NCBI RefSeq assembly: GCF_004217045.1
Contig: NZ_SGXM01000001.1
Span: 682,001 to 746,000 of the forward strand
DNA length: 64,000 nucleotides
From: Cupriavidus agavae
Lineage (GTDB): Bacteria > Pseudomonadota > Gammaproteobacteria > Burkholderiales > Burkholderiaceae
Reading direction: 5' to 3'
Shown piece after piece: positions 37,046 to 54,636 of this stretch. Each line of letters opens with the position of its first letter. The stretch's first letter is position 1. A program made the translations under genes and the position numbers. A model generated the notes under the pieces. It saw only the letters and a program-made list of their open reading frames with translations. It was not told the origin of the DNA and did no database searches.

Positions 37046-37759
37046 TCAGGCGAACGCCTGTTCCACGCGGTTGCGGCCGGCGCGCTTGGCCCGGTAGAGC
37101 GCTTCGTCGGCGCGGCCGTAGGCGTGAGCGAAGGTGCGGCCCTGCGCCGACCAGCTCACGCCGAAGCTTGCCGTGATGGCCCGTTCCACGGGCGCGGCGC
37201 AGCGGTAGTCGGCGATGGCCGCGCGCATGCGCTCGGCCAGGGCCATCGCGTCATCGAGCGCGAAATCCGGCAGCAGGGCCGCGAATTCCTCGCCACCCAC
37301 GCGTCCGATCGCGCCTTCCGCGCAGACCGTGTCCTTGAGGCAGGCGGTCACGCCGCAGATCACCGCATCGCCCACCGGGTGGCCGAACTCGTCGTTGAGC
37401 CGCTTGAAGTGGTCGATGTCGAGCACGATCAGCGCCAGGCTGCCGCGCGCCAATGCGGCGGTGGCCAGGTCGATCACGGCGCCCCGGTTCAGTGCGCCGG
37501 TCAGGGTGTCGTGGGTGGCGCGGTACTCCAGCTCCTGCGCCAGTTCCTGGAGCCGGTGGTTGAGCCGGTTCATCTCCAGTTCCTCGCGGTCGCTGCGCCG
37601 GATCAGGCGCCGGGTCTCGCGCATCAGCCGTTCGTAGTAGCTGATCAACTGGCCCAGCGTATGGCGATACGCCTCCTCGCCGGCGTCCACGTCGCAGAAG
37701 ACGGCCTTGGCGTGCGCCAGCACGCTGTTCTCGGATTCGAACAGGTCGGGCTCGGCCAT
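37046..37759 (-). CDS. siaD: SiaD-like diguanylate cyclase
   Basis: A 237-residue soluble enzyme making c-di-GMP. A helical N-terminus (about 20-80) precedes the GGDEF domain, which has DTLTGALNRGA, DIDHFKRLND and an active-site RVGGEEF. No RxxD inhibitory site is seen at the usual place, five residues before GGEEF, so product feedback may be absent. It is the last gene of a four-gene set with SiaA-, SiaB- and SiaC-like proteins; in Pseudomonas, SiaC binds and activates SiaD. The start MAEPDLF lies 32 bases beyond the siaC stop. Confidence 0.85.
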   Translation of the reverse strand: MAEPDLFESENSVLAHAKAVFCDVDAGEEAYRHTLGQLISYYERLMRETRRLIRRSDREELEMNRLNHRLQELAQELEYRATHDTLTGALNRGAVIDLATAALARGSLALIVLDIDHFKRLNDEFGHPVGDAVICGVTACLKDTVCAEGAIGRVGGEEFAALLPDFALDDAMALAERMRAAIADYRCAAPVERAITASFGVSWSAQGRTFAHAYGRADEALYRAKRAGRNRVEQAFA

Positions 37760-37791
37760 GCTGGCGGCGGGAAGGTTGTCGCGGGGAGCGT

Positions 37792-38181
37792 TCAACTGCT
37801 GGCGGTCACTTCGTCGACGAAATCGATGGCCGGAAAGTCGGCGTGCAGCTCCTGGCCGAACTCCAGGATCGTGTCGTCGTCCTCGTCGTGGAACCAGTGC
37901 AGGCGAACGTGGTTGCCGCGCTCGGCGGCCTCGTTGAGCGCGTCGAACATGCTGAACAGCATCTTGGTGCTGGAGCTGTTGAAATAGGTCAGCGCGACGT
38001 TGACGGTGACCGAGGCGTCCTCGCAGTCGGCCAGGTACTTGCGCAGGCGTGCGATGGCCTCGCCGTAAAAGACGGCGGCGTTCTCCGGATAGGATTCGCC
38101 CTTGAGCGAAAGTGTGTGCCGCGCGAAGTCGAAGCTCAGCTCGGGCGAGCTTGGCGTGGCGGCGATGAACAGGTTTTCCAT
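37792..38181 (-). CDS. siaC: SiaC-like regulator (DUF1987)
   Basis: A 129-residue protein of the SiaC/DUF1987 family, an anti-anti-sigma-like partner switched by phosphorylation. Visible features are KGESYPENAAVFYGEAI at about 27-43 and the conserved strand and loop VALTYFNSSSTKMLFSMFD at about 62-80. The phosphoacceptor Ser/Thr is expected in NSSST (residues 68-72). By Pseudomonas SiaABCD work, the unphosphorylated form activates the cyclase. It lies between siaB and siaD. Confidence 0.88.
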   Translation of the reverse strand: MENLFIAATPSSPELSFDFARHTLSLKGESYPENAAVFYGEAIARLRKYLADCEDASVTVNVALTYFNSSSTKMLFSMFDALNEAAERGNHVRLHWFHDEDDDTILEFGQELHADFPAIDFVDEVTASS

Positions 38182-38205
38182 GGCTGGCTCTGTGCGATCG
38201 GCGGG

Positions 38206-38778
38206 TCAGATGGTGGCGACGAGCTGGAACATCGTCGAGACCGGGTCCGTATCGATCGGCTGAAAATTGTACTCGAGGGGCGCGCTGGCGTCGCGTGCCA
38301 TCGTCAGGAATCCCAGGCCGGCGCCCTTGCTGCCTTCCGGCGTCTCGGCGCGCAGCGTCTGCTTGTAGGCGACCTTGATCTCGTCCAGCGTCATCGTGCG
38401 CACCTTCTCGAGCGCGCCGCGCAGTTGCTCCACGCGCATCGACGAGACGGGGTTCGAGCACATCAGGCGGTAGTGCTCGTCCACCATGCTGATGCAGACC
38501 GAGCCATGGCGCAACTGGCCGTCCGACTGCGAATCGGCGGTCAGCGAGTCCGACGAGTAATGCACGATGTTCTGCGCCATCTCCACGAACGAAGAGAACA
38601 GCTTGCGTCGCGTGGCGCCGTCCACGCCGCTCACCGTGAGCTGCAGGCGCACGGCGTCGGACATGGCGGCGATGATGTTCTGCGAGAAATAGCCGACGTA
38701 GTAGAAGATCACGTTGCGTTCCCGAGCCATCTGGAAGAACGGCTCATATTCCTTGTCAATCGAATGTGCGGCGGTCAT
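38206..38778 (-). CDS. siaB: SiaB-like protein kinase (DUF6272)
   Basis: A 190-residue GHKL-type ATPase fold expected to phosphorylate SiaC. An N-box-like EMAQNIVHYS (about 67-76) and a Gly-rich GAGLGFLTMARDA (about 152-164) would form the ATP site. There is no receiver or membrane part. It lies 24 bases upstream of siaC and 30 downstream of the phosphatase gene, so one transcript is likely. Confidence 0.86.
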   Translation of the reverse strand: MTAAHSIDKEYEPFFQMARERNVIFYYVGYFSQNIIAAMSDAVRLQLTVSGVDGATRRKLFSSFVEMAQNIVHYSSDSLTADSQSDGQLRHGSVCISMVDEHYRLMCSNPVSSMRVEQLRGALEKVRTMTLDEIKVAYKQTLRAETPEGSKGAGLGFLTMARDASAPLEYNFQPIDTDPVSTMFQLVATI

Positions 38779-38808
38779 GTGCGGGGGGGTGTTGTGCTGC
38801 CATGCGGC

Positions 38809-40056
38809 CTATTGCGCACGGAAGCAGAAGAAGGTCAGGTCGTCGCGGCGGCGCTGCTCGCCTTGCCAGGCGCGGTGGGCGTCGAGCACCGCCTCGCTGA
38901 TCCGCGCGGCCGGCGCGTCGCCAACGGCGCCAATCGCCTCGCGCATGCGCCGCTTGCCGAACGCGATCTCGCGCGGACCGCCGATCTGGTCGATCAGCCC
39001 GTCCGTGGTCACGAAGACGAGCGTGCCCGGTTGCGTGGCTACCGTGGCATTCTGCCAGGCGTAATCCATGGCTGTGTCGACATAGCCCACGCCCATGCGC
39101 GCGCCGTTGACCATCTCGCCATCGGCATCGCCGGGCTGGCGCACGAACAGCGACGACTTGGCGCCCGCGAAGGTCAGCGCGCGCGTGTCGTTGTCGAACC
39201 AGAAGAAGGCGGCGTCCATGCCATCGTCCGACGCCGAGGCGTCCGGCACCAGGCGCGGCTCGCTGTCGTTCTGGCCCAGCATCTGCTTGATGCCGCGGTT
39301 CACGGCCGCCAGCAGCGCGCCGGGGTCGCGGGGTCCGAGCTGGTCCAGCGCCTGGCCCAGCAGCGACGACGCGATCAGCGTCATGAAGGCGCCCGGCACG
39401 CCGTGGCCGGTGCAGTCGGCCAGCGCCGCGAACCAGCCGTCGTCGTACGCGGCGAAGTGATAGAAGTCGCCGCCCACCACGTCGCGCGGCTCCCAGACCA
39501 GCGCGGCGTCGGGCAGCGTGGCGGCCAGCGATTCGCGCGAGGTGCGCAGCATGGCCCGCTGGATCGTGCTGGCGTAGTCGATGCTGTGCATGATCTGGCG
39601 GTTGCGCTCGGCCTGCATGTCGGCCACCACGCGCATCAGCTGCAGGCCCTGTCCCAGGCCGATGTACTGCCCGTCACGCGCGATGATGAAGCCGTCAGCC
39701 AGCGCCTTTTCGCCGTATTCCACGGTGCGGAACGTCAGGGCATCGATGCTCATGGCCGCGTCCACCACCAGCGGCTCCTTGTCCATGAACGCGATGCAGC
39801 TCTTCCGGTTGTAGAGTTCGCGGTGATACGGCTTGCTCATCTGCGACATGAAAATGGCGCGGTTGATCAGGCCGATCGGTTTGCCCTGCTCGGTCACGGG
39901 CAGGCAGTTGAGGTCGCGGTGCACCCCGAAGACGTCGAGCACATCCTGGTTCGTATGGTCCGTGTTCACCGACGGCGTCGGCACGGCAAGATCCTCCGCG
40001 CAGGGCTGCCGGAAGCGCGGTCGGGCAGCCATTGGATCCACCAGAAAGCCGGACAT
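38809..40056 (-). CDS. siaA: SiaA-like PP2C (SpoIIE) phosphatase with N-terminal CBS-like region
   Basis: A 415-residue protein with a C-terminal PP2C/SpoIIE domain. Metal-site residues are visible in VVGGDFYHF, DCTGHGVPGAF and TTDGLIDQ. The N-terminal 140 residues lack membrane helices and look like a CBS pair: LPVTEQGKPIGLINR, then FIIARDGQYIGLGQG. Pseudomonas SiaA instead has a membrane-bound sensor and HAMP domain, so the input signal here is probably cytoplasmic. It would dephosphorylate SiaC. The start MSGFLVD was chosen; an upstream frame to 40158 is less likely. Confidence 0.84.
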   Translation of the reverse strand: MSGFLVDPMAARPRFRQPCAEDLAVPTPSVNTDHTNQDVLDVFGVHRDLNCLPVTEQGKPIGLINRAIFMSQMSKPYHRELYNRKSCIAFMDKEPLVVDAAMSIDALTFRTVEYGEKALADGFIIARDGQYIGLGQGLQLMRVVADMQAERNRQIMHSIDYASTIQRAMLRTSRESLAATLPDAALVWEPRDVVGGDFYHFAAYDDGWFAALADCTGHGVPGAFMTLIASSLLGQALDQLGPRDPGALLAAVNRGIKQMLGQNDSEPRLVPDASASDDGMDAAFFWFDNDTRALTFAGAKSSLFVRQPGDADGEMVNGARMGVGYVDTAMDYAWQNATVATQPGTLVFVTTDGLIDQIGGPREIAFGKRRMREAIGAVGDAPAARISEAVLDAHRAWQGEQRRRDDLTFFCFRAQ

Positions 40057-40176
40057 GACGAGAGAGACCAGGGTGTTGGAAGGTGGCCCAGAGTCTAGGC
40101 AGCGATTATGTCGAATCCGTGACGCGAACGTGCGCCGCACGCGGTTTTCCGGCCCCACTGGCGAGGGGTGGCGGCA

Positions 40177-40413
40177 TTAGGGATTCGGGGCGGTGCCGGA
40201 GCCGTCCGGCGCCTCGGGCGCCGGGGGCAGGCCGAGCCCCCGCGCCAGCATCGGCCAGCGCCGGATGGCGGCCTGCGTCTCCACCTCGCCCTGCTGGTCG
40301 AAATAGTGGGTCGCGTCGAAACCATCGACGTGCCGGGCCAGCGCGTCGATGTCGTTGTAGGCGATGCCGGCCTTGCGCGAGGTGATGGGCCGGCTCAGGG
40401 CGGGCTTGCTCAT
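40177..40413 (-). CDS. bcsR: BcsR-like small cellulose-biosynthesis protein
   Basis: A 78-residue cytoplasmic protein. The BcsR pattern is visible in the middle: NDIDALARHVDGFDATHYFD then AAIRRWPMLARGLG, matching the short helix and RWPLL-type end of E. coli BcsR. BcsR forms a complex with BcsQ and stabilises the synthase. Its ATG overlaps the bcsG stop (ATGA). Unlike E. coli, where bcsR is first, it is the last bcs gene here. The Pro-rich tail (about 62-78) is extra. Confidence 0.8.
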   Translation of the reverse strand: MSKPALSRPITSRKAGIAYNDIDALARHVDGFDATHYFDQQGEVETQAAIRRWPMLARGLGLPPAPEAPDGSGTAPNP

Positions 40414-41969
40414 TTCTGCTCCACCCAGACGCCGTCGGGCGTGTGGATGACATAGCCTTCGGTGCGCTTCATCGTGACGGTGCCCTCGTTCTCGCCCACC
40501 ATCGCGGTCTGCGGCAGGTCCTCGGCGTAGTGGGCGGCGGCGGGGGCGCCGGTCCGGAACGGGCTGTCGGCCACGAGGTTGAACAGCAGTTGCGACAGGC
40601 CCAGGAAGCTCATCGGCGCGTCGATGGTCACCGGCTCGGGTTTCTGTCCCGCCGGCAGGCCGACGAGCTTGACGCCTACCGGCACGTGGATGATGTTGGG
40701 CGTGGGAATCTCGCGCAGCCCCGAGATCTGGTTCTTGTCGCCGCGCAGCGCCGCGCCGTGCTCGGGCACGAAGATCACCACGGCGCGGCGGCCGGACTTT
40801 TCGATCGAGTCGATGATCCGGTCCACATCGTCCAGCAGTGCCTTGAGCCGCAGCGGATACGATTCCAGGCTGGTCAGCCGCTTGCCGGGCAGGCGGTTGC
40901 CGTCGTGCAGCGTCACGGTGTTGTAGTAGAGCGCCACCGGCTTGCGGTCCCTGGCCAGCCGACCGTACCAGTGGTCGAAGGTGGCGTAGTCGCCCAGCAC
41001 CGGCGAGTCGTCGAACGAACGCATCGCCACGGGCACGCCGTCCGTGGCCTCGGGCTGGATGCCGGGGATACCGATTTCCTTCTCCACCAGCGTGCGGAAG
41101 TTGTCGAAGCGCCCGTCATGGTTCATCAGGACATGCGGCGCAAAGCCGGCCTGGGCCAGGTCGGCGAACAGGTGGCATTCGGCGTTTTCGGGATCGTAGA
41201 GATTCTTGTGTGGCTGCTGGCCGCACGCGGCGCGCATCACGCGGATGGCGGCCGGGCCGCTGTAGCTGGCCGCCGAACTGAAGTTCTTGAACAGGTAGTC
41301 GAAACGCGACAGCAGCGGGTGGTTGGTGCTCTTGGCCGCATCGAGATCGTCCCACGACAGCGAGCAGATGTGCAGCATGATCACGTCGAACTGGGCGTCC
41401 GGCGTGGCCGTCAGCGGCGCCACGGTGGCGCTGCGCTGGGCTTCCTTCTCGCGGAAGGCGGCCAGGATGGCGTCGTAGTTGCCGGTGGCGTCGATATCGG
41501 CGCGCGGACTGTCTGCGGCGCGTGCCGCGGCCTGGCGCGCGGCGGCGCCCGGCAGCGTGATGCCGGGACCGTACCAGAACGGCATCGCCAGCAGCGCAAT
41601 CAGCACGAAGGTGGTGGTGCGCACCCAGCGGTTGATCAGCAGGAAGACCACCAGCACCAGCAGCACGGCCACCACCAGCTGGATCGAGATGAAGCGCTGC
41701 AGCAGCTCGACCAGGTAGGCCGGCGTGAACTCGCGGATATTGGTGAACTGCGACACCACGCGCTCGAACGGCGGCAGCGTCGATTCGCGCCACGCCAGCG
41801 CCGCCCCGAAGCCGATCGCCAGGACCTGGCGCACCACGCGCAGCGGCCGCGACTCCATCGGCGCCACCAGCAGCAGCGCGAACGCCAGGTTGGCCAGCCA
41901 GATCGGCTTCATCTGCCCGGTGTGGAACAGGTAGAGCTTGGCGAGGAAGTAGAGGTTCCAGAGTCCCAT
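40410..41969 (-). CDS. bcsG: Cellulose phosphoethanolamine transferase BcsG
   Basis: Inner-membrane enzyme that decorates nascent cellulose with phosphoethanolamine. Four hydrophobic segments (about 25-130) precede a periplasmic alkaline-phosphatase-fold domain. The expected nucleophile Ser237 lies in AASYSGPAAIRVMRA, and metal-site residues are expected around MLHICSLSWDD and VPEHGAALRGD. The 519-residue length is close to E. coli BcsG. Presence with bcsE and bcsF argues for a modified cellulose rather than plain cellulose. Confidence 0.94.
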   Translation of the reverse strand: MGLWNLYFLAKLYLFHTGQMKPIWLANLAFALLLVAPMESRPLRVVRQVLAIGFGAALAWRESTLPPFERVVSQFTNIREFTPAYLVELLQRFISIQLVVAVLLVLVVFLLINRWVRTTTFVLIALLAMPFWYGPGITLPGAAARQAAARAADSPRADIDATGNYDAILAAFREKEAQRSATVAPLTATPDAQFDVIMLHICSLSWDDLDAAKSTNHPLLSRFDYLFKNFSSAASYSGPAAIRVMRAACGQQPHKNLYDPENAECHLFADLAQAGFAPHVLMNHDGRFDNFRTLVEKEIGIPGIQPEATDGVPVAMRSFDDSPVLGDYATFDHWYGRLARDRKPVALYYNTVTLHDGNRLPGKRLTSLESYPLRLKALLDDVDRIIDSIEKSGRRAVVIFVPEHGAALRGDKNQISGLREIPTPNIIHVPVGVKLVGLPAGQKPEPVTIDAPMSFLGLSQLLFNLVADSPFRTGAPAAAHYAEDLPQTAMVGENEGTVTMKRTEGYVIHTPDGVWVEQK

Positions 41970-41996
41970 GAGGTCTCGCTTGGGTGCCGTGCGGTG

Positions 41997-44609
41997 TCAG
42001 GGCTGCCGGGCGCGGCGCCGCGCCAGGATGACGTCGGCCGCGTCCACGAAGGCGTCGTAGAGCCGCAGCAGGCCCTGGTAGCCCATCTCGATCACTTCCT
42101 TGAGGCTGCGCAGCGGCGCGTCCACGCGCTCGTCGTCGAGCCAGTCGATCCACGCGTCGGCCCGGCCGAACGTGCACTGGATCAGCTGCGTTTCGCGCTC
42201 CACCGTCAGGTCTTCCATGCGCACGCCGAGGTGGCGGTTCACGTTGCGCGTGACCACGGCGGGAAAGTGGTAGGTGCGCGGCCCGCGCGACAGGCACACG
42301 CCCACGCGCGCCCCTTCGTCGAGCGGCACGTCCATCGGCAGCACCACCCCGAGGCCGCCCATCGAGTAGTTCTCGGTCTTGCAGGCCAGCGTGCGGCCGT
42401 CGGGCAGCAGCAGCGTGGCCGGCACGCGCATCGGGATGCGGTGTGAGACGCGCACCTGCCGCGCCTCGCGCGCCACGCCCACCGCCGCGCCCAGCATCAT
42501 CAGGTTGAACAGCGCCCAGGCCATGTTCATCAGCACCGTGGCGGGCTCCTCGGTGCCCATGAACAGCAGCCGGCCGATGCCGGCACCCAGGCCGATGATG
42601 TTCAGCGCCAGCAGGAACAGGTAGGGCTTGGAGATCGTCCAGTCGAGGTAATCGTCGGCGATCTGCCCACCCTTGGCCGTGACGTTGAACTTGCCGGCGC
42701 GCGGGTTGATGAACGCCACGGTGGTGGGCAGCACGATGTACCAGGCCAGCACCGATTCATAGACCTCGGCCCAGAACGAATGCCGGAAGCGCCCCTGCAG
42801 CCGCGAGTTGGTCACGTTGGCGATCATCAGGTAGGGCACCACGTACGCCGTGATCAGCAGCGCCGAGGTGTTGATGACGTGCAGCCCGAAGTACAGGTAG
42901 GCGATCGGCATCGTCAGGAAGATCAGCCGGGGGATGCCGTAGAAGAAGTGCATCATCGCGTTGCTGTAGCACAGGCGCTGGAAGACACTCAGGCCCCGCC
43001 CCAGCATCGGATTGTCGAGCCGGAAGATCTGCGCCATGCCGCGCGCCCAGCGGATGCGCTGGCCGATATGGCCGGACAGGCTCTCGGTGGCCAGCCCGGC
43101 GGCCTGCACCGTGCGCAGGTAGGCGCTGTTGTAGCCGCGCCGGTGCAGCTTGAGCGCGGTGTGGGCGTCCTCGGTGACGGTCTCCACGGCAATGCCGCCC
43201 ACTTCCAGCAGCGGGCCGCGCTTGATGACCGCGCACGAGCCGCAGAAGAACGTGGCGTTCCAGAAATCGTTGCCGTCCTGGATCAGGCCGTAGAACAGGC
43301 TGCCCTCATTGGGCACGCGGCGGAACGTGTCGAAGTTGCGCTCGAACGGGTCAGGCGAGAAGAAGTGATGGGGCGTCTGCACCAGCGCGCAGGCGGGGTC
43401 GGTGATGAACTCGCCCATCGTCATCTGCAGGAACGAGCGTGTCGGGATGTGGTCGCAGTCGAAGATCGCCACGTACTCGCCGTTGGTCTTCGGCAGCGCC
43501 GCGTTGATGTTGCCGGCCTTGGCGTGGCGGTTGTCGGTGCGCGTCAGGTAGCCCACGCCGGCCGCGGCGGCGAAGGCCTCGATATGCGGCCGGCGGCCGT
43601 CGTCGAGGATGTAGACGCGCAGCTTATGCGCCGGCCAGTCCATGCTGCGCGCCGCGAACACCGTGGGCTGGATGACGTTGAGCGCCTCGTTGTAGGTGGG
43701 GATGAACACGTCCACGGTGGGCCACTGTTCGGGGTCCGCCGGCAGCGGCTTGGGCCGGCGGTGCAGCGGCCAGGCCGTCTGCAGGTATCCCAGCGCCAGC
43801 ACGATCCAGGTGTAGATCTCGGCGGCAAACAGCACGTAGCCCACCGCCGCCTCGGTGGGCGTGGCGAACTGCAGCGTCTGGGTGGAGCGCCACCAAATAT
43901 AGCGCCCGGCCATCAGCGTGGACAGCGCGATCATCGTGATCGTGGCAAGCCGTCCCGGCACGCGGCGCACCACCGACAGCACTACCCAGATCACCGCGAA
44001 CATCAGTACCTGGTCCGCCAGCGGCAGCGGCGTGGTGCTGACCGCCAGCACGGCGATGGCAGCCAGCACCAGAGACACCGGCAGCACGAACGGAATCCTG
44101 CCGATCCGGGCCGAGACCGATTCCGTGGCGTAGGCCACCCGGTTCCAGTCCGGGTGCGGCAGCGTTTTCAGCAGCTTGTGGCGCAGCCGCGAGGCAGCGT
44201 GCCAGATCGGCTCGAACACGCGATCGAGCGCGCGGCGCAGCCAGCCCGTGCGTTCGGGCTCGGCCATGCCGCTGCGCGCCCGGCGCGGATCGGCGGCCAG
44301 CCGCACGCGCGGGCGCGGCGGACGGACGAACAGCCGCCACAGCCACGTGCCGGCATGGGGTTTGCCGCCCGCCTTCGCACCGGGGCCGATGCCCACGCCG
44401 AGCCGTGCCATGGCACGCCGGTAGAGCAGCGCGGCCCATTCGGCCGGGATGTCGGGCTTGCCCGGACGCGGCGGCCTGAAGAACACGCGCAGCAGCCAGT
44501 CGCCGAAGTGGGGCGGGGCGCCCGTGCGCGAGCGTACGCCGAGCTGGCGCGAGAGCCAGTCGCGCGTGGCGGCGAGCCGGGTGCCCATGGCGGGCAGACG
44601 CGCGCTCAT
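41997..44609 (-). CDS. bcsA: Cellulose synthase catalytic subunit with PilZ domain
   Basis: UDP-glucose-dependent processive glycosyltransferase (GT2), 870 residues. Catalytic motifs are DDG near 345, DCD (FDCDHIP) near 383, TED near 478 and QRIRWARG near 517; about eight membrane segments flank them. The PilZ domain near 720-800 keeps the c-di-GMP ligands HRIPMR and NYSMGGLG. A roughly 150-residue soluble N-terminus contains two related motifs, WLLRVFFRPPRP and WLWRLFVRPPRP. The start MSARLP overlaps the bcsQ stop (ATGA). It is separated from bcsB by four other genes, which is unusual. Confidence 0.97.
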   Translation of the reverse strand: MSARLPAMGTRLAATRDWLSRQLGVRSRTGAPPHFGDWLLRVFFRPPRPGKPDIPAEWAALLYRRAMARLGVGIGPGAKAGGKPHAGTWLWRLFVRPPRPRVRLAADPRRARSGMAEPERTGWLRRALDRVFEPIWHAASRLRHKLLKTLPHPDWNRVAYATESVSARIGRIPFVLPVSLVLAAIAVLAVSTTPLPLADQVLMFAVIWVVLSVVRRVPGRLATITMIALSTLMAGRYIWWRSTQTLQFATPTEAAVGYVLFAAEIYTWIVLALGYLQTAWPLHRRPKPLPADPEQWPTVDVFIPTYNEALNVIQPTVFAARSMDWPAHKLRVYILDDGRRPHIEAFAAAAGVGYLTRTDNRHAKAGNINAALPKTNGEYVAIFDCDHIPTRSFLQMTMGEFITDPACALVQTPHHFFSPDPFERNFDTFRRVPNEGSLFYGLIQDGNDFWNATFFCGSCAVIKRGPLLEVGGIAVETVTEDAHTALKLHRRGYNSAYLRTVQAAGLATESLSGHIGQRIRWARGMAQIFRLDNPMLGRGLSVFQRLCYSNAMMHFFYGIPRLIFLTMPIAYLYFGLHVINTSALLITAYVVPYLMIANVTNSRLQGRFRHSFWAEVYESVLAWYIVLPTTVAFINPRAGKFNVTAKGGQIADDYLDWTISKPYLFLLALNIIGLGAGIGRLLFMGTEEPATVLMNMAWALFNLMMLGAAVGVAREARQVRVSHRIPMRVPATLLLPDGRTLACKTENYSMGGLGVVLPMDVPLDEGARVGVCLSRGPRTYHFPAVVTRNVNRHLGVRMEDLTVERETQLIQCTFGRADAWIDWLDDERVDAPLRSLKEVIEMGYQGLLRLYDAFVDAADVILARRRARQP

Positions 44610-45376
44610 GCCGGAACCTCCGTGGCCGTATCGGCATGGCTGGACGCCAGCCACGCCGACAGCCAGGACGCCACGCCATTCAGATCATGGGCGGCCTGCG
44701 AGTGCGGCGTACTGCGGGTAAAGCACTCGCTGCGTGCCAGCGCGTCGGGCACGCTGCTGTCCTCGTGCACGTGGTACGGCAGCATGGCGGGGCCCAGCAT
44801 CGCCTGCAGCATGGCGATGATGTCGACATGGAGCTGGCGCGCCGGATGCAGCCGGGTGGCCAGGTAACGCACGGTCTTGCCGCGCATGGCGAGGCTGTCG
44901 ACGAGCCGGCGCAGCGTGAGGCAAGTTTCCGGCTGGGCGGCTACGAGCACCAGCACGAGGTCCGCCGCATCGATGGCCTGTTCCGCGTGAGGCGAGGGCC
45001 ACGGCGGGGTGTCGATCAGGATCGCGCTGCCTGCCGGCAGATCCACGGCGTCGAATTGCCGGGCCAGCCAGTTCGCGGGCAGGCGCTCCATCGCGCCGGC
45101 TTCGATACTGTCGCCCCACGGCACGAACAGCGCGCCATCGTCGCTGCGGCGGCCCGCCGCGGCCCATGCCCCCGGCGCGGTGGCGTGCAGGCTGCTCCCC
45201 AACCCGTCGGCCGCCGCGTCGCGCAGGCCGAAGTGGAAGCCGAGAACATTGCGCGGATCGCACTCGACGGCCAGCACCGCGTGCTTGCGCCAGGCCAGCA
45301 GCGACGCCAGTTCGGCGGCGAGCGTCGTGCGTCCGGCGCCGCCCGTGGCCGAGACGATCGCCACCGTGCCGCTCAT
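44606..45376 (-). CDS. bcsQ: BcsQ, MinD-like cellulose biosynthesis protein
   Basis: A 256-residue ParA/MinD-family protein that in E. coli forms an ATP-bound dimer with BcsR and localises the synthase. The P-loop reads ATGGAGRTTLA: both signature lysines are missing, Arg standing where the main Lys would be. E. coli BcsQ also departs from the consensus at this point. Other parts are ECDPRNVLG, ILIDTPPWP and LVLVLVAAQPETCL. It overlaps bcsF upstream and bcsA downstream by four bases each. Confidence 0.9.
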   Translation of the reverse strand: MSGTVAIVSATGGAGRTTLAAELASLLAWRKHAVLAVECDPRNVLGFHFGLRDAAADGLGSSLHATAPGAWAAAGRRSDDGALFVPWGDSIEAGAMERLPANWLARQFDAVDLPAGSAILIDTPPWPSPHAEQAIDAADLVLVLVAAQPETCLTLRRLVDSLAMRGKTVRYLATRLHPARQLHVDIIAMLQAMLGPAMLPYHVHEDSSVPDALARSECFTRSTPHSQAAHDLNGVASWLSAWLASSHADTATEVPA

Positions 45377-45573
45377 GGCCGCTCTCCCCGTACTGCCTGC
45401 CGCTTGCCGCGGATCACCAGCGCCTGCACCTGGGGCGGCAGCCGTACCGCGCGACGCGGGCGCGGTGCGGTCCAGCGTGGCAGCCAGCGCAGCAGGTCGA
45501 AGCGCCACGTCAGCCACGCCAGCGGTGCGGCGAGGATCAGGCCCCAGACAAAGTAGCCGAGAAAGATGGGCAT
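45373..45573 (-). CDS. bcsF: BcsF, small single-pass membrane protein
   Basis: A 66-residue protein with one membrane helix (about 5-25, LGYFVWGLILAAPLAWLTW) and a basic cytoplasmic tail (PRPRRAVRLPP). Size, topology and position directly after bcsE match BcsF, which recruits BcsE to the membrane in E. coli. Sequence identity to BcsF was not judged beyond this. It starts 2 bases after the bcsE stop and overlaps bcsQ by ATGA. Confidence 0.82.
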   Translation of the reverse strand: MPIFLGYFVWGLILAAPLAWLTWRFDLLRWLPRWTAPRPRRAVRLPPQVQALVIRGKRQAVRGERP

Positions 45574-45575
45574 GG

Positions 45576-47327: not shown

Positions 47328-47337
47328 GGGGGCGCGC

Positions 47338-50300
47338 TCAATAGGCCGAATAGGGTCGCACCGGCGTGGGCGGGAACGGCACCGGCATCTGCCGCTTGTC
47401 GAACAGGTAGCGCAGCCACGCCATGGCGCGGTTCGGCGCGTAGTCGCGCGAGCGGTCGATCGAGAAGCCGGCGCCCACCACCCAGTGCGGCGCGAAGGTG
47501 TACTCGATCGTCGCCCCCAGCGTGTAGCTGAAGCCGCCGCCGGAGCCGCCGCCGTACCTGGCGTCGCCGCTCAGCGCCTGCAGGTCGGGGCGGGTGGGGA
47601 AGTACGGGGCTTCGTCCTCGTACGTGAACGACCAGCCAGCCGAGCCGATGAAGCGCCACGACCACTTTGCGTACCGGCCGGTCCAGTCCAGCGGGATGCC
47701 GAACGAGACATAGCGCTGCGGGCTGTAGTAGCCGCCATGGCCGAACGTGTAGTAGCGCTGGTTCTCGGCATAGCGCCAGTAGTTGACTACCAGCCCGCTG
47801 GTCACGCGCTGGTCGCGCCGGGCGTAGACCGGTACGTCGAAGCCGGTGCGCACGGTCACCTCGCGGTTGGTCTTCACGTTGTCCCCAGTGTAGAGGCCGT
47901 AGCCGACGTCGGCAAACAGGCCCACCCGGCCCACGTCGCGCGCATAGCGCACATGCACGCCGTTGCGCACGATGCCGCCCCAGGTCTCGCCGGTCACCGG
48001 GTCGCGCGCGCCGGCGTACGAGATCAGCGAACTGGTCTGCGCCCGGCGCGAGACATCGACGGTCACGGCCTGCGCGCCGAGGTCCGCGCGGTACCGGAAG
48101 CCGCCCACCACCGTGGACTCCAGGAAGCCCAGCGGCGTGGTGCCGAGATCGGCGCGCCAGCTGTTGTAGGCGCCGTCGTACTCGTAGCCGGCCGCCAGCG
48201 CCACGCCCTTGTCGTTCTCGCCGATATTGCCGAGGCCGGCGTTGCCGAGCGCGGGAATCTTGCCGAAGGGCAGGTTGCCTACGCTGCTGCTGCCGCGTAG
48301 CGTCCCGGCGTCGAGCAGTACCGTGTCGGCGTGGAAAAACGCGTGGCCGGCGTAGCCGTGCGGCATCCGCACGTAGAGCGGGATCTCGGTGGCGTGAAGC
48401 TTCGAGATGCCGTCGTCGCCGGACTTGTTCGACTGCATCACCGCCGTGGCCACCTCGCCCTGGCGGCGCGCTTCGAGCCCGGCCAGTGCACGCTGCGCCG
48501 GCGTGCCGTCAGGGCCCGCGGCCACGCTCTCGCGCTGCTCCAGCCCGCGTGCGGAACGATAGATCGCGGCGGCCTCGTTGAAATCGCCGCGCGACTGGGC
48601 GATGCGCCCGCGCTGCACGGTGATGTCGGCCCGGTCCGGAAAGCGCGTATCCAGCGCGGCCACCACGTCGGCGGCCTCGTCCTCGCGCCGCATCGCCGTG
48701 AAGCGCCGCGCCACCGAGAGCCGCGTGTCGATGTCGTCCTCGGGCGTTTCAGCCAGCACCGTGCGGACGAGGTCGAGGGCCTGCCCGGTGTCGCCCATGC
48801 GCTCGTATTGCCGGGCGAGGGTCAGCCGTGCCCCGGCGTCGGCGGGCTGGGTGGCGAGCACGCGGCGCGCGGCGTCGGCAGCGCCCCGGTAGTCGCCGCC
48901 GGCCTCGCGCAGGTCGGCCAGCGTCAGCAGCCAGCGCCGGTCGGCCTGCTGGGCGGCGGGCACTGCGTCGAGCGTGCGTTGCGCCTGCGCCAGTTCGCCG
49001 TCATCGATCTGCCGGCCGGTCTCGCGCAACGCCAGCCGCAGCGACTGGTCGGCGAAGTCATGGCGCTGTTCGGCCGTGATGCCCGGCAGCGTGGTCGAGT
49101 CGGCGATCCACTGGCGCAGCGCGGCATCGCGCTCGGCGGCGGCCAGCAGTTCGCCGTAGCGCAGCCGGATGTCGATGTGCGGATCGCCGGGATGCGCGGC
49201 CAGCCAGTCCTGCACGAGCGAGAGCCCCTTGTCTGTCTCGCCCAGCGCAATCCACTCGCGGCCGATCGACGCCAGCATGTGGCCGTCGTCCTTCGCTTCC
49301 ACGGCGGCCTGGTCCAGCAAGTGGCGCGCCTCGGCATCGCGGCCCTCGGCCACGCGCTGGCGTGCAACGCGCAGCAGTTGCTGGGCCACCAGGTTGTGGG
49401 CCAGGTTGCGCATGCCTTCGGAACGCCCGGCCGGCGGCACGGCGGCCAGCACCGTGGCGGCGGTGTCGATATCGTCGACGCTGTTCAGGTACAGCGCGGC
49501 CGCGTAGCGCATCTCGCTGGTGGGCGCGGCGCGCAGGCCGTCGTCGATGACGCTGCGGCCCAGCGCAGGCAGGTTCAGGTCGCGGTAGACGCGCGCCAGC
49601 GTGAACCGAGTCCACGGCGCGTCGGGCTGCAGGCGGATGGCATCTTCGAGATGCTGGATGGCCGGGCTGCGCTTCTGCAGGGCCAGCAGGCGGTCCGCAC
49701 GCGCCGACAGCAAATCCGCCCGCATCGCCCGCAGTTCGCTGTCCGAGCCCCGCAGGCGCGCCTCCTGGCTGGCGATCAGCGGTCCCACCTCGTCGTCGCG
49801 GCCCTGCTTCTGCAGCAGCTCGGCCAGCGTGCGCAGCGTGCCGACGTCTGGCTTGGGCCGCGCCAGCATCTGGCGCAGCAGCGTCTCGGCCTCGGCATCC
49901 TTGTTCTGTGCCACGAGCGCGTCGGCGAGCACCGCCTGCGCGTTTTCGTTGCCGGGCTGCTGGGCCAGCGCCTGGCGGGCCAGCGTCTCGGCGTCGGCGG
50001 GCCGGCCCTGCGCGTTGGCCTCGCGCGCCTTGCCCACCGTGCCCCAGAACGTGGCCGTGGCGATCAGGCTGCGCCATTTGCTGGACGGATCGATCCGCTC
50101 GGCGCGCGTGAATAGTTCGCGCGCCTCGTCGTGGCGACCCTCGCGCAGCCGCACCAGCCCCAGCCCGCCCACCACCTCGGCGTCGTTGCGGCGCTTCTGG
50201 TAGGCCCGCTGGAGCGCGATATCGGCGTCGCGGGTGTTGCCGCGTTCGAGCTGGGCCAGACCGCGCTGCCGGGCCAGCCGGGCCGGGTCCCTGGTCTGCT

Positions 50301-51144
50301 TCTGCTCCGCCGTGGCGACCTTGCCGAGCGCGGCCAGCGTCTCCTGCGCCGCCTTGTCGTCGGGCACCTCCTTGATATAGCGCTCGAACCAGACGTAGTA
50401 GGCCGGGTCCGTGGTCACGCGGTACAGCGTGCGGCGCCAGATGTCGAGCGCGGCGCGCCGGTCGCCGTCGGGCCGCTGGCTGACGCGGTAGAGGATGTCG
50501 ATGCCTTCCTGGCGGGTACCCTCGCGGTCGGTCAGCAGGTCGCCGAGTGCCAGTTGCAGGGCCATGTCGTCGGGATGCTCGCGGGTGCGGCGGCGCAGTT
50601 CGGCGATTGCCTCGGGACGTCCGTCCGGCGTGCCGGACAGGATGCGGTAGTACTCGCGCGCCAGATCGCCAGAGGGTGCGCCGCGCGGGAACAGCTTGCG
50701 CAGCCGTGCCACGGCCTCCTCGTCCTTGCCGCTGCGCGACAGCAGCCGGATATTGGCCATCTCGCGCTTGTCGCGCGTGGCGATGCGGTAGGCGTCGTCG
50801 AGTTCCAGCGCGGCGGCGCTGCCCGGCGCGGCGGCCTGCAACTGCTTCAGGCGCTTCTCGGCCTCGGCAAGACGGTTCGAGCGGATCTCGATCAGCCCCA
50901 TCAGCCTGAGCGCCTCGGGCTGGTTCGGATCGATCAGCAGCGCCTTCTCCAGGATGCCGCGTGCCATGTCGGCGCGGTTCCTGGCCTCCCACAGCCGCGC
51001 GGCCGCGAGCAGTTGCGCCATCTGGGCCGAGGGCGCGGCCTGCGGCGCCGGGGCGGCAGCGGCGGAGGGGTTGGCGGCGGGGGCGGACATGGCGGGCGTG
51101 GCCAGCAGCAGCGCCAGCGTGGGCGCTAGCGCGTGGCGGGGCAT
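47338..51144 (-). CDS. bcsC: BcsC, cellulose export TPR scaffold and outer-membrane barrel
   Basis: A 1268-residue exporter. A signal peptide (about 1-20, ending TPAMSAPA) is followed by about 850 residues of TPR-type helical repeats (ARGILEKALLIDPNQPEALR is a typical unit). A BcsC-type outer-membrane barrel forms the last 350 residues, ending with YLFDKRQMPVPFPP. It forms the periplasmic bridge and outer-membrane pore for the glucan. The start MPRHALAP lies inside the end of bcsZ (19-base overlap). The reading frame remains open far upstream, but that part is a shadow of bcsZ. Confidence 0.95.
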   Translation of the reverse strand: MPRHALAPTLALLLATPAMSAPAANPSAAAAPAPQAAPSAQMAQLLAAARLWEARNRADMARGILEKALLIDPNQPEALRLMGLIEIRSNRLAEAEKRLKQLQAAAPGSAAALELDDAYRIATRDKREMANIRLLSRSGKDEEAVARLRKLFPRGAPSGDLAREYYRILSGTPDGRPEAIAELRRRTREHPDDMALQLALGDLLTDREGTRQEGIDILYRVSQRPDGDRRAALDIWRRTLYRVTTDPAYYVWFERYIKEVPDDKAAQETLAALGKVATAEQKQTRDPARLARQRGLAQLERGNTRDADIALQRAYQKRRNDAEVVGGLGLVRLREGRHDEARELFTRAERIDPSSKWRSLIATATFWGTVGKAREANAQGRPADAETLARQALAQQPGNENAQAVLADALVAQNKDAEAETLLRQMLARPKPDVGTLRTLAELLQKQGRDDEVGPLIASQEARLRGSDSELRAMRADLLSARADRLLALQKRSPAIQHLEDAIRLQPDAPWTRFTLARVYRDLNLPALGRSVIDDGLRAAPTSEMRYAAALYLNSVDDIDTAATVLAAVPPAGRSEGMRNLAHNLVAQQLLRVARQRVAEGRDAEARHLLDQAAVEAKDDGHMLASIGREWIALGETDKGLSLVQDWLAAHPGDPHIDIRLRYGELLAAAERDAALRQWIADSTTLPGITAEQRHDFADQSLRLALRETGRQIDDGELAQAQRTLDAVPAAQQADRRWLLTLADLREAGGDYRGAADAARRVLATQPADAGARLTLARQYERMGDTGQALDLVRTVLAETPEDDIDTRLSVARRFTAMRREDEAADVVAALDTRFPDRADITVQRGRIAQSRGDFNEAAAIYRSARGLEQRESVAAGPDGTPAQRALAGLEARRQGEVATAVMQSNKSGDDGISKLHATEIPLYVRMPHGYAGHAFFHADTVLLDAGTLRGSSSVGNLPFGKIPALGNAGLGNIGENDKGVALAAGYEYDGAYNSWRADLGTTPLGFLESTVVGGFRYRADLGAQAVTVDVSRRAQTSSLISYAGARDPVTGETWGGIVRNGVHVRYARDVGRVGLFADVGYGLYTGDNVKTNREVTVRTGFDVPVYARRDQRVTSGLVVNYWRYAENQRYYTFGHGGYYSPQRYVSFGIPLDWTGRYAKWSWRFIGSAGWSFTYEDEAPYFPTRPDLQALSGDARYGGGSGGGFSYTLGATIEYTFAPHWVVGAGFSIDRSRDYAPNRAMAWLRYLFDKRQMPVPFPPTPVRPYSAY

Positions 51145-52292
51145 GTGGATTCCCAGGCCGGCACCAGCGTGCCGTCCGCCTCGAAGCGGAAGTGTCCTGC
51201 CAGATGGCCGAGTCCGAACAGCGCCAGCACCTGGCTGTAGTAGCCGAACGGCGCCTGCGCCGCGAGCGTGCGGGCGCGGCTGACCTGCGCGGCGGCGGCT
51301 GCGTCCTGGCCCAGCGCGGCCAGGTAGGGCGCCAGCGCGGCCGAGAAGCCGCCGTTGCCGGCGTTCGGGCCGAACGTGCCGGTTTGCGTATCCACGTGTT
51401 CGGGGGGGTGGCCGCGCGTGGCCACGTAGTCGGCCATCGGGCGGAACGCCTGCAGCACCGTGGTGCGCAGCGGATCGCGTGGCGCCATCATGCCGGCCCA
51501 CAGGTAGACCCGGATCGCGTTGTAGGAGCCATCGGCCCGGCTCTGCGTGTCGGCCACGAAGCCGCGCCCCTTGCGGTAGCCCGCCCAGTCCGGCGAGAAG
51601 CCTTGCGGGGCGGTATCGACGATGAGCCGCGCCGAACTGTCGACCAGCGCCTTCCAGCCGCTGTCCTCGGTCAGTACCGCGGCAAGGCGCCGCATCACCG
51701 GCAGCGGCACGTAGCTGGGATTGAGCCGCCAGAGGTCCGGTTCGGGATGGAAGCCCACCGGTCCGGGCAGCAGCGTGCGGCCCAGCCCCGGCAGCACGGC
51801 GGTTTCCTCGCGCAGCACGCGCCGCGCCACCAGCGTGCCCAGCGCCGTATAACGGCGCTCGTTCCAGAGCCGGCCCGCTTCGAGCAGCGTGTAGGCGATC
51901 CACAGGTCGGCATCGGACGCCGGGTTGGCGTCGATCACCCCCCAGGTGCCGGCCTGCCCGCCCTCGCTGCGCCGGCCCCAGATCCAGGCAGGCAGGTGCG
52001 CCGCAAGGTCGCCTTGCGCGAGGTTGTTCTCGGTCCACGCCAGCAGCCGGTCGAACGTGGCGCGGTCGTTGGCGGCCAGCGCGAAGAACAGGCCATAGGC
52101 CTGCCCCTCGGAGACGGTGACCTGTTGCGGCGTGCTGGCGTCGATGACGCGGCCGTCCTGGCTGATCGTGGTGCGGCGGAACGCCTCCCAGTCCGGCCAG
52201 GGGCAGGTGGCCGCGGCGGCCGGCACCGCGCCGGCGAGCGCGCCCGCCAGCAGGCACCACCGGCCCAGGCGCCGCAGCCAGGGCGTGGCCAT
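51126..52292 (-). CDS. bcsZ: BcsZ periplasmic endo-1,4-beta-glucanase (GH8)
   Basis: Periplasmic cellulase needed for proper cellulose assembly. The 388-residue protein has a signal peptide (about 1-27, ending AAAATC). GH8 catalytic-region motifs are VSEGQAYGLFFALAA near residue 60 (Glu as acid) and QSRADGSYNAIRVYLWAGM near 245. The start MATPWL was chosen because it opens the signal peptide. Its start is 1 base from the bcsB stop. Confidence 0.95.
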   Translation of the reverse strand: MATPWLRRLGRWCLLAGALAGAVPAAAATCPWPDWEAFRRTTISQDGRVIDASTPQQVTVSEGQAYGLFFALAANDRATFDRLLAWTENNLAQGDLAAHLPAWIWGRRSEGGQAGTWGVIDANPASDADLWIAYTLLEAGRLWNERRYTALGTLVARRVLREETAVLPGLGRTLLPGPVGFHPEPDLWRLNPSYVPLPVMRRLAAVLTEDSGWKALVDSSARLIVDTAPQGFSPDWAGYRKGRGFVADTQSRADGSYNAIRVYLWAGMMAPRDPLRTTVLQAFRPMADYVATRGHPPEHVDTQTGTFGPNAGNGGFSAALAPYLAALGQDAAAAAQVSRARTLAAQAPFGYYSQVLALFGLGHLAGHFRFEADGTLVPAWESTCPATR

Positions 52293-52293
52293 G

Positions 52294-54636
52294 TCAGCCC
52301 CCGTTGCGCCGCGCCGCAAGCCGGCCCAGCGCCCAGAACAGCGTCAACGCCACCAGCAGCCCGGCCACGATGCCGGCAATGGCCAGCAGCGCGGGGTGCG
52401 CGGACATCGTCATCCACAGCCGGGCATACCAGGGCAGGTTGCCGACGTAGTAGGTGTCGCCCAGGCGCAGCCCTTCCAGTTCGCGCTGGCGGATGACGGT
52501 CAGGTCGCCACGGATCTGCGACACCTTGCCCGGGTCTTCGAGCACGTCGAGCACGTCGCGCACGCGCTCGTCGCTCGACGCGGTCAGCGCCACCACGCTG
52601 CGCCGCTCGCCGTACGGCGATTCGAAGCCGATCAGCGCGGCCATCGGCCCGTCGGCGCTGAGGATCGCGCGGCCGGCCGGCGAGATATTTTCCTCGTCGA
52701 TGCCGCTGAGCCAGTTCGACCATGCGTGCGTGCGCTGGTCGCGCAGCGTGATCTCGGTCTTGCCCTGCTCGATCAGCAGCGGCAGCGACTTGCCCCAGCG
52801 CTGCAGCACCTGCGCCGCGCTGCCGGTGCCGATGACCACGAGGTTGCGGTCCTTGACCGAATCGATCGACCTGGCCGGCGCCACGGTCACGCGCAGCGAC
52901 GGCAGGCCGGTCCACTTGCCCATGTGGCCGAGCACGGTCAGCAGGGCCTCCTGGTCGACCGGGGTCGGGGCGTCGGGAATCACGATCGCCGTGTCCGACA
53001 GGTCGGCCATGCGCGTGAACGGGTAGCCGCTGTTGGCGAAGAACGCCAGGTTAGGCAGCGCCGCGTAGTGCAGGAAGCCGCTGAAATCGATCGACGAATC
53101 AGGGTCCACCGCCGCCCGTGCCACGTTGGCGGCCGACGACGCGCACAGCCCGGTCTTCTGCGAATCGATATGGAAGCGGAACTGCATCTGGTTGTTGCTG
53201 CCCACGCGGAACGCCGGAATCAGGATCGAGCTGCTGACCGTGGCGCTGCCGCCCGACAGCAGCGGCACGGCCACCACGTTCTCGTCGGTCTGCACGGTCA
53301 GCGGCTTGAGCCGGTACGAGCGCACGAGCTGGTCGTTGACGTCGACGCTCAGCACCGAATCGTTGTACGTGGACGGGGCCGTGTAGCGGTACTTCATGCT
53401 CAGCGGCACCGAACGGTCGTTCCAGCCGAACAGGTCGGCCGGCACCTTCAGGTTCACGCGGATGGCGTCCGGGTTGGCGCCCGAGACCTGCAGTTGCTGG
53501 GGATCGGTGACCAGTTCCCTGAACAGCACCGGCCGGTCCACCGGCGCCCAGGCCGGTGCGTCGTACGGCCGGCGTGGGCGGCCCAGGTCCACGGACTGCA
53601 CGGCGGCGCGCGGACCGGCCATGGCGGCCTTGCCGAGCACCACCGCGTTGGCGGCAATCTCCAGTTCCTGCGGCGTGCGGCCGGCCAGCACCAGCAGCTT
53701 GCGGGCCGGGTTGGCCGGATTCGGCATCACGCTGACCGAGGGGCCTTCGATCTTCTCGATCCGGATGCCGTCCGGCTGGGCGTTGGGCAGTACCAGGGCG
53801 ATGGCGTGGGCGTCGGCGGGCGCGCCGCTCGCCACCGGAAAGCGCAGTTCGCGGTAGCTGGCCAGCCCGCCGAGCCACGACGCCACCACGCCGGCCGCCC
53901 GCAGCGTGAGCGGATCGGCGTTGGCGGGCAGCATGAACGGCACGGTCACGCGCCGGTTGTCGCGGCGGTCGAAGAACGGGGCCGGCAGCAGCGCCAGGCT
54001 GTCCGGCAGCGTGATGGCGGCCTTGGTCAGCGTCAGCGAGCTGGTCGGGCTGATATCGGTCCAGAGCGTGGAATGGTAGGGGTCTTCGCAGTGGTCGAGC
54101 GTGTAGTGCGCGATCAACTGCACGTTGATGCGGTTGAAGTCGGTGAAGAAGCGCGGGTCCAGGTCGATTTCGCGCGAGACCTGCTGGCCGGCATGTTCCT
54201 TGTCGAGCGGCAGCGTGGCCACCACCTCGTCATTGAGCCGCACCTTCAGGTGCGAGAGCGGGAAGATCAGCGCCGGCGAGTAGGTGAAGACCAGCTTGAG
54301 CCGCGCCGCCGTCACCACCTCGTCCAGCCGCACACCGACATTGACCGTGCGGTCCGGGTCCAGGCCGCGCAGCGGGATCGTGTAGTTGGCGCCCATCTGG
54401 GCGAAGGTCACGGTCTGGGCGCGCCCCACGGGCGGGGCGGCCGGAGCGGGAGCGGCGGCCGGGGCGTCCGGAACGGCGGGCGCCGCCGGCGGGGAAGGCG
54501 CCGGCTGGGCTGCCGCGCGTGGCAATTCCGCCAGGCATAACAGGGCGGGGAGAAGCGCCGTCAGCAGGACCGGCCGGGCATTCCGCCTGAGCCGGAATTG
54601 CCCGATGTGTCGCAGGCCTGACAGGAGTTCCCTCAT
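52294..54636 (-). CDS. bcsB: BcsB, periplasmic cellulose synthase subunit
   Basis: A 780-residue membrane-anchored periplasmic protein that binds BcsA and guides the glucan. A signal peptide (about 1-43, ending RAAAQ) and a Pro/Ala-rich linker precede carbohydrate-binding and flavodoxin-like domains (from QTVTFAQMGANYTIPLRG onward). A C-terminal membrane anchor (about 752-775, LLAIAGIVAGLLVALTLFWA) ends the protein. It is the first gene of the minus-strand bcs run, which makes it the likely promoter-proximal gene. Confidence 0.95.
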   Translation of the reverse strand: MRELLSGLRHIGQFRLRRNARPVLLTALLPALLCLAELPRAAAQPAPSPPAAPAVPDAPAAAPAPAAPPVGRAQTVTFAQMGANYTIPLRGLDPDRTVNVGVRLDEVVTAARLKLVFTYSPALIFPLSHLKVRLNDEVVATLPLDKEHAGQQVSREIDLDPRFFTDFNRINVQLIAHYTLDHCEDPYHSTLWTDISPTSSLTLTKAAITLPDSLALLPAPFFDRRDNRRVTVPFMLPANADPLTLRAAGVVASWLGGLASYRELRFPVASGAPADAHAIALVLPNAQPDGIRIEKIEGPSVSVMPNPANPARKLLVLAGRTPQELEIAANAVVLGKAAMAGPRAAVQSVDLGRPRRPYDAPAWAPVDRPVLFRELVTDPQQLQVSGANPDAIRVNLKVPADLFGWNDRSVPLSMKYRYTAPSTYNDSVLSVDVNDQLVRSYRLKPLTVQTDENVVAVPLLSGGSATVSSSILIPAFRVGSNNQMQFRFHIDSQKTGLCASSAANVARAAVDPDSSIDFSGFLHYAALPNLAFFANSGYPFTRMADLSDTAIVIPDAPTPVDQEALLTVLGHMGKWTGLPSLRVTVAPARSIDSVKDRNLVVIGTGSAAQVLQRWGKSLPLLIEQGKTEITLRDQRTHAWSNWLSGIDEENISPAGRAILSADGPMAALIGFESPYGERRSVVALTASSDERVRDVLDVLEDPGKVSQIRGDLTVIRQRELEGLRLGDTYYVGNLPWYARLWMTMSAHPALLAIAGIVAGLLVALTLFWALGRLAARRNGG

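Follow-up and report, generated by a model that had tools for sequence, protein, structure and literature searches.

Introduction

SiaABCD of Pseudomonas aeruginosa places a diguanylate cyclase, SiaD, under a protein phosphorylation switch. Its SiaC protein is phosphorylated at Thr68 and contacts the stalk of SiaD at two motifs, and an I-site gives product inhibition by cyclic di-guanosine monophosphate (c-di-GMP) (PMC7647112, PMC8457831). SiaA is reported to sense membrane perturbation (PMC12834913) and a FleQ consensus site is reported for sia (PMC8125075). We describe here a variant of this module in Cupriavidus agavae, located on the minus strand of a 64,000-nucleotide stretch of contig NZ_SGXM01000001.1 (the window), just 3' of a cluster of bcs (cellulose) genes. 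The likeness to the P. aeruginosa system, as far as the available text describes it, comprises the gene order, a PP2C phosphatase, a SiaB-family kinase, a DUF1987 phosphoprotein and a GGDEF cyclase with a SiaC-binding stalk motif (PMC7647112, PMC8457831, PMC12834913).

Phosphate supply has been connected with c-di-GMP in two other bacteria. In Pseudomonas fluorescens, low phosphate lowers c-di-GMP via RapA, a phosphodiesterase (PMC3032545). In Agrobacterium attachment, a PhoB-dependent rise of c-di-GMP in low phosphate is suggested, without an enzyme being named in the available text, and PhoR/PhoB is named for both cases (PMC4018554). Among the matches listed from the open-access literature, no paper was found that reports SiaABCD to be controlled by phosphate or bcs to be linked with sia, and the available portions of three P. 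aeruginosa papers among those matches name for siaD other regulators or none, not PhoB.

The analysis points to a SiaABCD-like switch that has its own predicted PhoB-type promoter and stands beside exchangeable cellulose operons, with supply of the module as a main control, a reading on which our confidence is evenly divided. Judged from the sequence of its upstream region, the siaABCD start is probably of the phosphate-starvation type, and a shortage of phosphate may thereby adjust the level of the messenger by which cells are led to produce cellulose.

A SiaABCD-like module with a soluble SiaA

The original prediction identified the four genes as siaA-siaB-siaC-siaD homologues, and both Pfam and solved structures agree. 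Each protein matches one from the solved P. aeruginosa system (SiaA 6k4e, SiaB 6kko, SiaC 6kko/6k4f, SiaD 7e6g); for SiaD, several other GGDEF structures score equal to or above 7e6g. The module is nevertheless filed as SiaABCD-like and not as SiaABCD, because all four proteins fall below the NCBIfam equivalog cut-offs (198 of 700 bits for SiaA, 72 of 225 for SiaB, 86 of 150 for SiaC and 149 of 290 for SiaD), although SiaB is above its subfamily cut-off (NF038262). The C. agavae genome has a single copy of SiaC. Four features of the locus had been missed at first reading: the CBS-type domain of SiaA, the serine in SiaC, the lack of an I-site in SiaD and the Pho-box-like element in the gap.

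SiaA carries GGDF, DCTGHG, TTDG and RRDD, which we take to be the metal-site motifs of a PP2C phosphatase, and SiaB carries EMAQN and GAGLG. No membrane segment or HAMP domain was found in the window SiaA, the highest 19-residue hydropathy being 1.34. A CBS match was obtained in all 36 of the SiaA N-termini scanned, and a profile of the N-terminus finds one solved protein, 5g5r, which is called a site-2 protease but whose matched chain is presumably a CBS domain. By these sequence comparisons the SiaA N-terminus is classed as a CBS-type domain and SiaA as a soluble protein. CBS domains often bind adenine nucleotides. The assignment of siaA thus stands for the phosphatase, while the membrane and HAMP part of the Pseudomonas protein is replaced by the CBS-type domain.

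In the SiaC alignment, Ser69 stands opposite Thr68, the residue phosphorylated in P. aeruginosa. Among 140 fetched rows (duplicates included), the phosphosite region reads NSSS in 128, NTSS in five and NSAS in three, with four unparsed. In SiaD, the GGEEF motif is at residue 155 and the S-D-R of the proximal stalk motif is conserved with Gln replaced by Glu. The second SiaC-binding stalk motif was not seen in the window SiaD, and the RxxD product-inhibition I-site is absent from it; the I-site is likewise absent from 118 of 129 SiaD rows and present in 11 (duplicates included).

Two groups of loci depart from the four-gene order. Three family genomes (L039, L040 and L041) have siaA, siaB and siaC without a nearby siaD match, and Pho-box-like matches lie about 170 bases before their siaA. 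Four Chitinimonas loci (L088, L093, L098 and L099) have the order siaA-siaC-siaB, also with no nearby siaD match.

A conserved promoter-like element before siaA

The 120-base spacing previously noted between bcs and sia was recovered exactly, from the stop of the bcsR-like gene (40177) to the siaA ATG (40056), but the gap is not empty. In the window it contains two GTCA-type half-sites 11 bp apart, located 10 nt before a -10-like TAGACT. Alignment of the gaps gave the consensus GTCA(C/T), 6 nt, G(T/A)CA(C/T), 10 nt, TAnnnT. This block just before siaA is kept in the 13 loci linked to clusters with BcsE and BcsG (BcsE/G-linked) and in Cupriavidus sp. YR651 (L018), which has no bcs genes upstream, and it can also be made out in loci of C. 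basilensis-like genomes and of C. numazuensis, in which sia is located elsewhere. The gap varies from 96 to 271 bases, and the block lies near its siaA end.

An exact pattern occurs in 46 of 123 siaA upstream regions as compared with 2 of 12,300 shuffles. With a 13-point score derived from Cupriavidus loci, 111 of the 123 regions (duplicates included; one, L053, counted as a miss with a wrongly extrapolated siaA start) reached at least 11 points. This level was attained by 0.4% of shuffles, by 39 of 18,739 stretches drawn at random from these loci, and by 10 of the 731 regions that precede other long open reading frames (ORFs). The window element has 12 of 13 points, and the Herbaspirillum loci have 13 of 13 in five out of five. 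To avoid circularity, as the score derives from Cupriavidus loci, an external matrix was built from 59 Escherichia coli PhoB chromatin immunoprecipitation (ChIP) sites (PMC10294691). By this matrix, 97 of the 103 regions scored before siaA rank within the top 5% of background, and 52 of the 103 within the top 1%; L053, L063, L109, L122, L161 and duplicate loci are omitted from this 103-row set.

The possibility was considered that siaABCD is simply the 3' end of one long bcs-sia transcript, so that the cyclase would rise and fall with the cellulose machine. The genes share a strand and a gap of 120 bases, and the earlier observation that no terminator is seen between bcs and sia held up in a pattern scan of the coding strand of the gap; the only two matches are on the other strand, and shuffles give a mean of 2.6. 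Adjacency in 13 genomes with the BcsE/G-type cluster and in three with another cluster, among 24 sia-bearing genomes, is also in keeping with a common transcript. However, the promoter-like block is kept in gaps of very different length, without bcs upstream in L018, and where sia is elsewhere, which weakens a single operon as the whole story. We consider the long transcript unlikely as the governing arrangement, and it could hold in addition to an own siaA promoter. The original description of the cyclase as hard-wired to the cellulose machine is consequently retained in part. The module does lie beside two c-di-GMP receptors and the adjacency is kept in the genus, but hard-wiring as one operon is not supported because the element persists at the same site without bcs and where sia lies elsewhere.

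Further from siaA than the Pho-box-like element, at 40151-40175 on the minus strand of the window, lies a GC-rich, partly palindromic block, which has its counterpart in the same place in L003, L006, L011, L018 and L057. It is recognisable in sia loci of the aminotransferase site described below, whether bcs is present or not, and is a candidate operator or terminator. A GC-rich inverted repeat after bcsR was tried as a bcs terminator and rejected, its stem being short or absent in most of eight folded loci, with no clear T-run, and the repeat being present in L018 without bcs.

Evidence for and against a PhoB-type site

A close form of the pattern matches nine places in the C. agavae genome, and the reversed pattern none. 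One of these is siaA. Four others are upstream of pstS, of ppx, which diverges from ppk, of a gene for a phosphocholine phospholipase C and of phoX, which we take to be standard phosphate-starvation genes; the remaining four precede a phasin gene, a DeoR/GlpR-type regulator gene, a periplasmic binding protein gene and a gene without a family match. At the phasin gene (L175, own-genome position C1:1538239), the same pattern would tie storage granules to phosphate shortage. The genome encodes a PhoB orthologue (345.9 bits against a cut-off of 296.2), 3.7 kilobases (kb) past the pstS match. E. coli phoA, used as a control, has 13 of 13 points with the same spacing. Furthermore, the P. aeruginosa PhoB ChIP motif, taken on the other strand from the available text, is GTCAT N6 GTCAT, which is the spacing found here (PMC6610081).

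Several results weigh against this reading. Four of the eight other own-genome matches are not known phosphate genes. A generic sigma-70 scan of the gap found no promoter, and no terminator was found there either, so that read-through from bcs may occur. The window site is itself modest: its second half-site is GACAT and not GTCAT, its first base is C, and its matrix score of 12.4 is below all five own-genome comparison genes (13.6 to 23.2). As the external matrix puts it just in the top 2.7% of background, a Pho box upstream of siaA is weakly indicated in the window. None of the 16 bcs-linked rows is in the top 1%, YR651 is the weakest row and lies outside the top 5%, and Chitinimonas mostly lacks the element, with one row of four in the top 5%. 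The matrix rows are moreover relatives with common ancestry and not independent. bcsB has no such element (score 8, matrix 5.5% of background), and phosphoethanolamine cellulose made in phosphate hunger would spend phosphate.

The weakness of the site follows the lineage. Matrix medians are 12.4 and 11.2 for the two groups of the aminotransferase-site lineage and 7.8 for YR651, as against 18.9 for six other Cupriavidus rows, indicating that the element is weaker throughout that lineage, bcs present or not.

A modest site is also what might be expected if the element serves another regulator of the OmpR/PhoB family. In Duganella-type and Janthinobacterium loci the half-sites shift towards GTAAT/GTAAC, and C. 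agavae encodes many response regulators that resemble PhoB but score under the PhoB cut-off. On the other side, the own-genome matches include the standard phosphate genes, and GTAAT and GACAC half-sites occur among the E. coli PhoB ChIP sites in the available text (PMC10294691). We judge a regulator other than PhoB to be improbable, and PhoB is retained as the preferred candidate.

Linkage of bcs and sia across genomes

When named relatives are ranked by SiaC, Cupriavidus comes closest. Among 60 genomes of the genus, 24 have SiaC and 30 have BcsE, with BcsE but no SiaC in 15. The surroundings of all 24 sia loci were read. In 13, sia is 3' of a BcsE/G-type cluster, including two (G069 and G725) whose contig ends within bcsA so that BcsE itself is not visible. 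In three (G152, G243 and G720), sia is 3' of a different cluster, BcsQ-BcsA-BcsB-BcsZ-BcsC, whose BcsB is 40-42% and BcsC about 30% identical to those of the window; a BcsD gene was confirmed in the single locus of this type tested (L148 of G720). The remaining eight have no bcs genes in the flanks read. Loci L053, L056 and L054 were assigned to G717, G718 and G721 according to where they lie on their contigs.

No linkage was found in the loci read outside the genus, where the flanks covered some 7-10 kb, or ran as far as the contig reached, and the search for bcs used the proteins of the window only. bcs is beside sia in none of 22 loci from the rest of the family; these come from 20 of the 36 family genomes outside the genus that have SiaC, and the other 16 were compared by SiaC and BcsE coordinates only. 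It is linked in none of 62 non-genus loci among the 80 retained from 245 named relatives, and in none of 11 loci from nine genomes of the class. Three annotated plasmid records have no bcs gene annotated near sia. The linkage is therefore conserved but narrow: the proposed survey of Burkholderiaceae yielded adjacency in 16 of 24 sia-bearing Cupriavidus genomes, with two kinds of bcs cluster, and no adjacency in the loci read elsewhere.

One locus, L139 (G291), has a bcs cluster that seems to be broken in two, one part having been turned round: bcsR, G, A and Q are oriented opposite to bcsC and bcsE, and a GGDEF-EAL-like match is between them.

One site with changing neighbours

The upstream flank was compared in the window, the three loci with the other cluster type and YR651. 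The window and the three other-type loci have in common an upstream aminotransferase gene (75-79% identical) and the small gene next to it; a GGDEF match further upstream in the three was not counted because it is just 39-40% identical and partial. YR651 has the same aminotransferase and small genes and also the GGDEF-EAL gene of the window (75%). There siaABCD comes next, without intervening bcs genes, and the bcsE of YR651 is on another contig. Downstream, a tRNA-Ser gene is found in 10 of the 13 BcsE/G-linked loci, including the window, and in YR651; of the three loci without one, two are represented by short stretches. A tree of sia puts the other-type loci in one group (100/100) and YR651 among the BcsE/G-linked loci. 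Thus sia holds one flank while the bcs genes are of the BcsE/G type, of the other type or absent. A cellulose cassette that varies while sia keeps its flank fits a functional pairing and also simple inertia of the site.

The arrangement could indeed be neighbourhood without function, if a site between the aminotransferase and tRNA-Ser genes gains and loses cassettes, sia stays by chance and SiaD feeds a general c-di-GMP pool. Such an account is in line with a bcs cluster that varies or is lacking at the site while sia remains, with a tRNA-Ser gene in the fetched stretch of 5 of 17 bcs loci scanned, all five from genomes without sia, with the separate location of sia and bcs in the other Burkholderiales loci that were read, and with the 15 genus genomes that have BcsE but no SiaC. 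Within one genus, however, two clearly different cellulose clusters are placed alike with respect to sia, which argues for a pairing instead, and chance adjacency appears to us somewhat unlikely.

Proposed mechanism

From the homology, motifs, linkage and conserved element computed here, we infer PhoB binding, a phosphate response, the direction of its effect and an action on cellulose. The switch logic is carried over from P. aeruginosa by homology. SiaB would phosphorylate SiaC, at Ser69 by prediction, and keep it off the cyclase; SiaA would strip the phosphate, and unphosphorylated SiaC would bind the SiaD stalk and turn SiaD on. A soluble SiaA with a CBS-type domain should read an internal ligand and not the membrane, and a SiaD without an I-site should not be braked by its product there.

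In the preferred reading, the Pho-box-like element would drive transcription of siaABCD from a start within the 120-base gap, so that phosphate shortage would increase the amount of the module. Its c-di-GMP would in turn affect the adjacent cellulose machine via the PilZ domain of BcsA, plus BcsE where present. Supply would be set by the module's own promoter, probably of the PhoB type, and activity by SiaA and SiaB. Computation supports the promoter step, and homology the remaining ones.

Taken further, the CBS-type SiaABCD may be an overlooked member of the phosphate-starvation regulon across much of Burkholderiales, in which PhoB would switch on an I-site-less cyclase and the CBS phosphatase would act as a second gate, Cupriavidus turning phosphate hunger into cellulose, including phosphate-bearing cellulose; for this wider proposal belief and doubt are about equal. 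If true, SiaABCD switches would come in two forms, the second being soluble and transcribed under nutrient control, and a cyclase module would be named by which phosphate shortage could raise c-di-GMP. The puzzle would then be why a phosphate-short cell drives a machine whose BcsG adds phosphoethanolamine.

Gene content of the locus

The coordinates of the bcs and sia genes and of the predicted promoter are given in Table 1. The bcs genes are followed on the minus strand by siaA-siaB-siaC-siaD in the order originally described. Family matches were obtained for eight of nine bcs genes (BcsB, BcsZ, BcsC, BcsE, BcsQ, BcsA with PilZ, BcsG and BcsR-like); the gene at the bcsF position alone lacks one, a Pfam scan started one codon inside this 66-residue ORF giving none at E 0.001. 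The bcsZ start is assumed to be the ATG at 52292, and a longer form from a TTG at 52319 is possible. The module was correctly placed beside two c-di-GMP receptors: the RxxxR and NxSxxG motifs of the BcsA PilZ domain and the RxGD motif of BcsE are intact, and we take these to be c-di-GMP-binding motifs. BcsG presumably belongs to a family of phosphoethanolamine transferases. Upstream of bcsB, on the same strand, is a gene for a GAF-GGDEF-EAL protein (56166-58073), with two plus-strand genes between.

Table 1. Features of the bcs-sia locus, with positions in the window
Feature	Position	Strand	Basis
bcsB	52294..54636	-	PF03170 E 9.1e-218
bcsZ (GH8 endoglucanase)	51126..52292	-	PF01270; PRK11097 above cut-off
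bcsC	47338..51144	-	BCSC_C E 4.3e-112; ATG at 51144 assumed
bcsE, c-di-GMP receptor family	45576..47327	-	PF10995 E 1e-141; TIGR03369 415 bits, cut-off 245; RxGD present
66-residue ORF at bcsF position, single hydrophobic stretch	45373..45573	-	Position only
bcsQ	44606..45376	-	TIGR03371 above cut-off
bcsA with PilZ	41997..44609	-	PRK11498 above cut-off; RxxxR...NxSxxG present
bcsG	40410..41969	-	TIGR03368 729 bits, cut-off 410
bcsR-like gene	40177..40413	-	PF10945 32.8 bits, cut-off 25.2; under NCBIfam BcsR cut-off
Pho-box-like element and -10-like hexamer, predicted siaABCD promoter	40092..40123	-	Conservation, own-genome pattern, external PhoB matrix
siaA-like, CBS-type N-terminal domain and SpoIIE/PP2C phosphatase	38809..40056	-	SpoIIE E 8.8e-20; 6k4e E 7.2e-49
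siaB-family kinase	38206..38778	-	NF038262 208.7 bits, cut-off 85; DUF6272 E 9.1e-41; 6kko
siaC	37792..38181	-	PF09345 E 2.1e-39; 6kko/6k4f
siaD-like diguanylate cyclase	37046..37759	-	GGDEF E 2.2e-34; GGEEF, SDR stalk motif; 7e6g

Comparison with known systems

The cellulose genes resemble an E. coli-type bcs cluster in having BcsB, Z, C, E, Q, A and G and an R-like gene by family match. An E. coli-type cluster with BcsE and BcsG makes phosphoethanolamine cellulose. The present cluster differs in the cyclase module at its 3' end and in its unconfirmed BcsF candidate, and its gene order is presumably also different from that of E. coli.

Phosphate shortage alters c-di-GMP in P. fluorescens, through RapA, and in Agrobacterium, as far as the available accounts of both go, and a similar connection is suggested here. 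These two cases go opposite ways, so that phosphate shortage may raise or lower c-di-GMP. In contrast to both, the cyclase module of C. agavae itself carries a predicted PhoB-type site. HsbD/HsbA and BgrR/BgrV are likewise cyclases under a phospho-switched partner, but in the available text their partners are STAS proteins, whereas the partner here is a DUF1987 protein (PMC8457831).

The module also differs from P. aeruginosa SiaABCD. The P. aeruginosa SiaA has membrane segments and a HAMP domain, whereas SiaA here is predicted to be soluble with a CBS-type domain. SiaC has a serine in place of Thr68, and in SiaD a single SDR stalk motif can be recognised and the I-site is lacking. Moreover, the sia genes of C. 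agavae, unlike those of P. aeruginosa, have their own predicted Pho-box-like promoter and lie adjacent to bcs.

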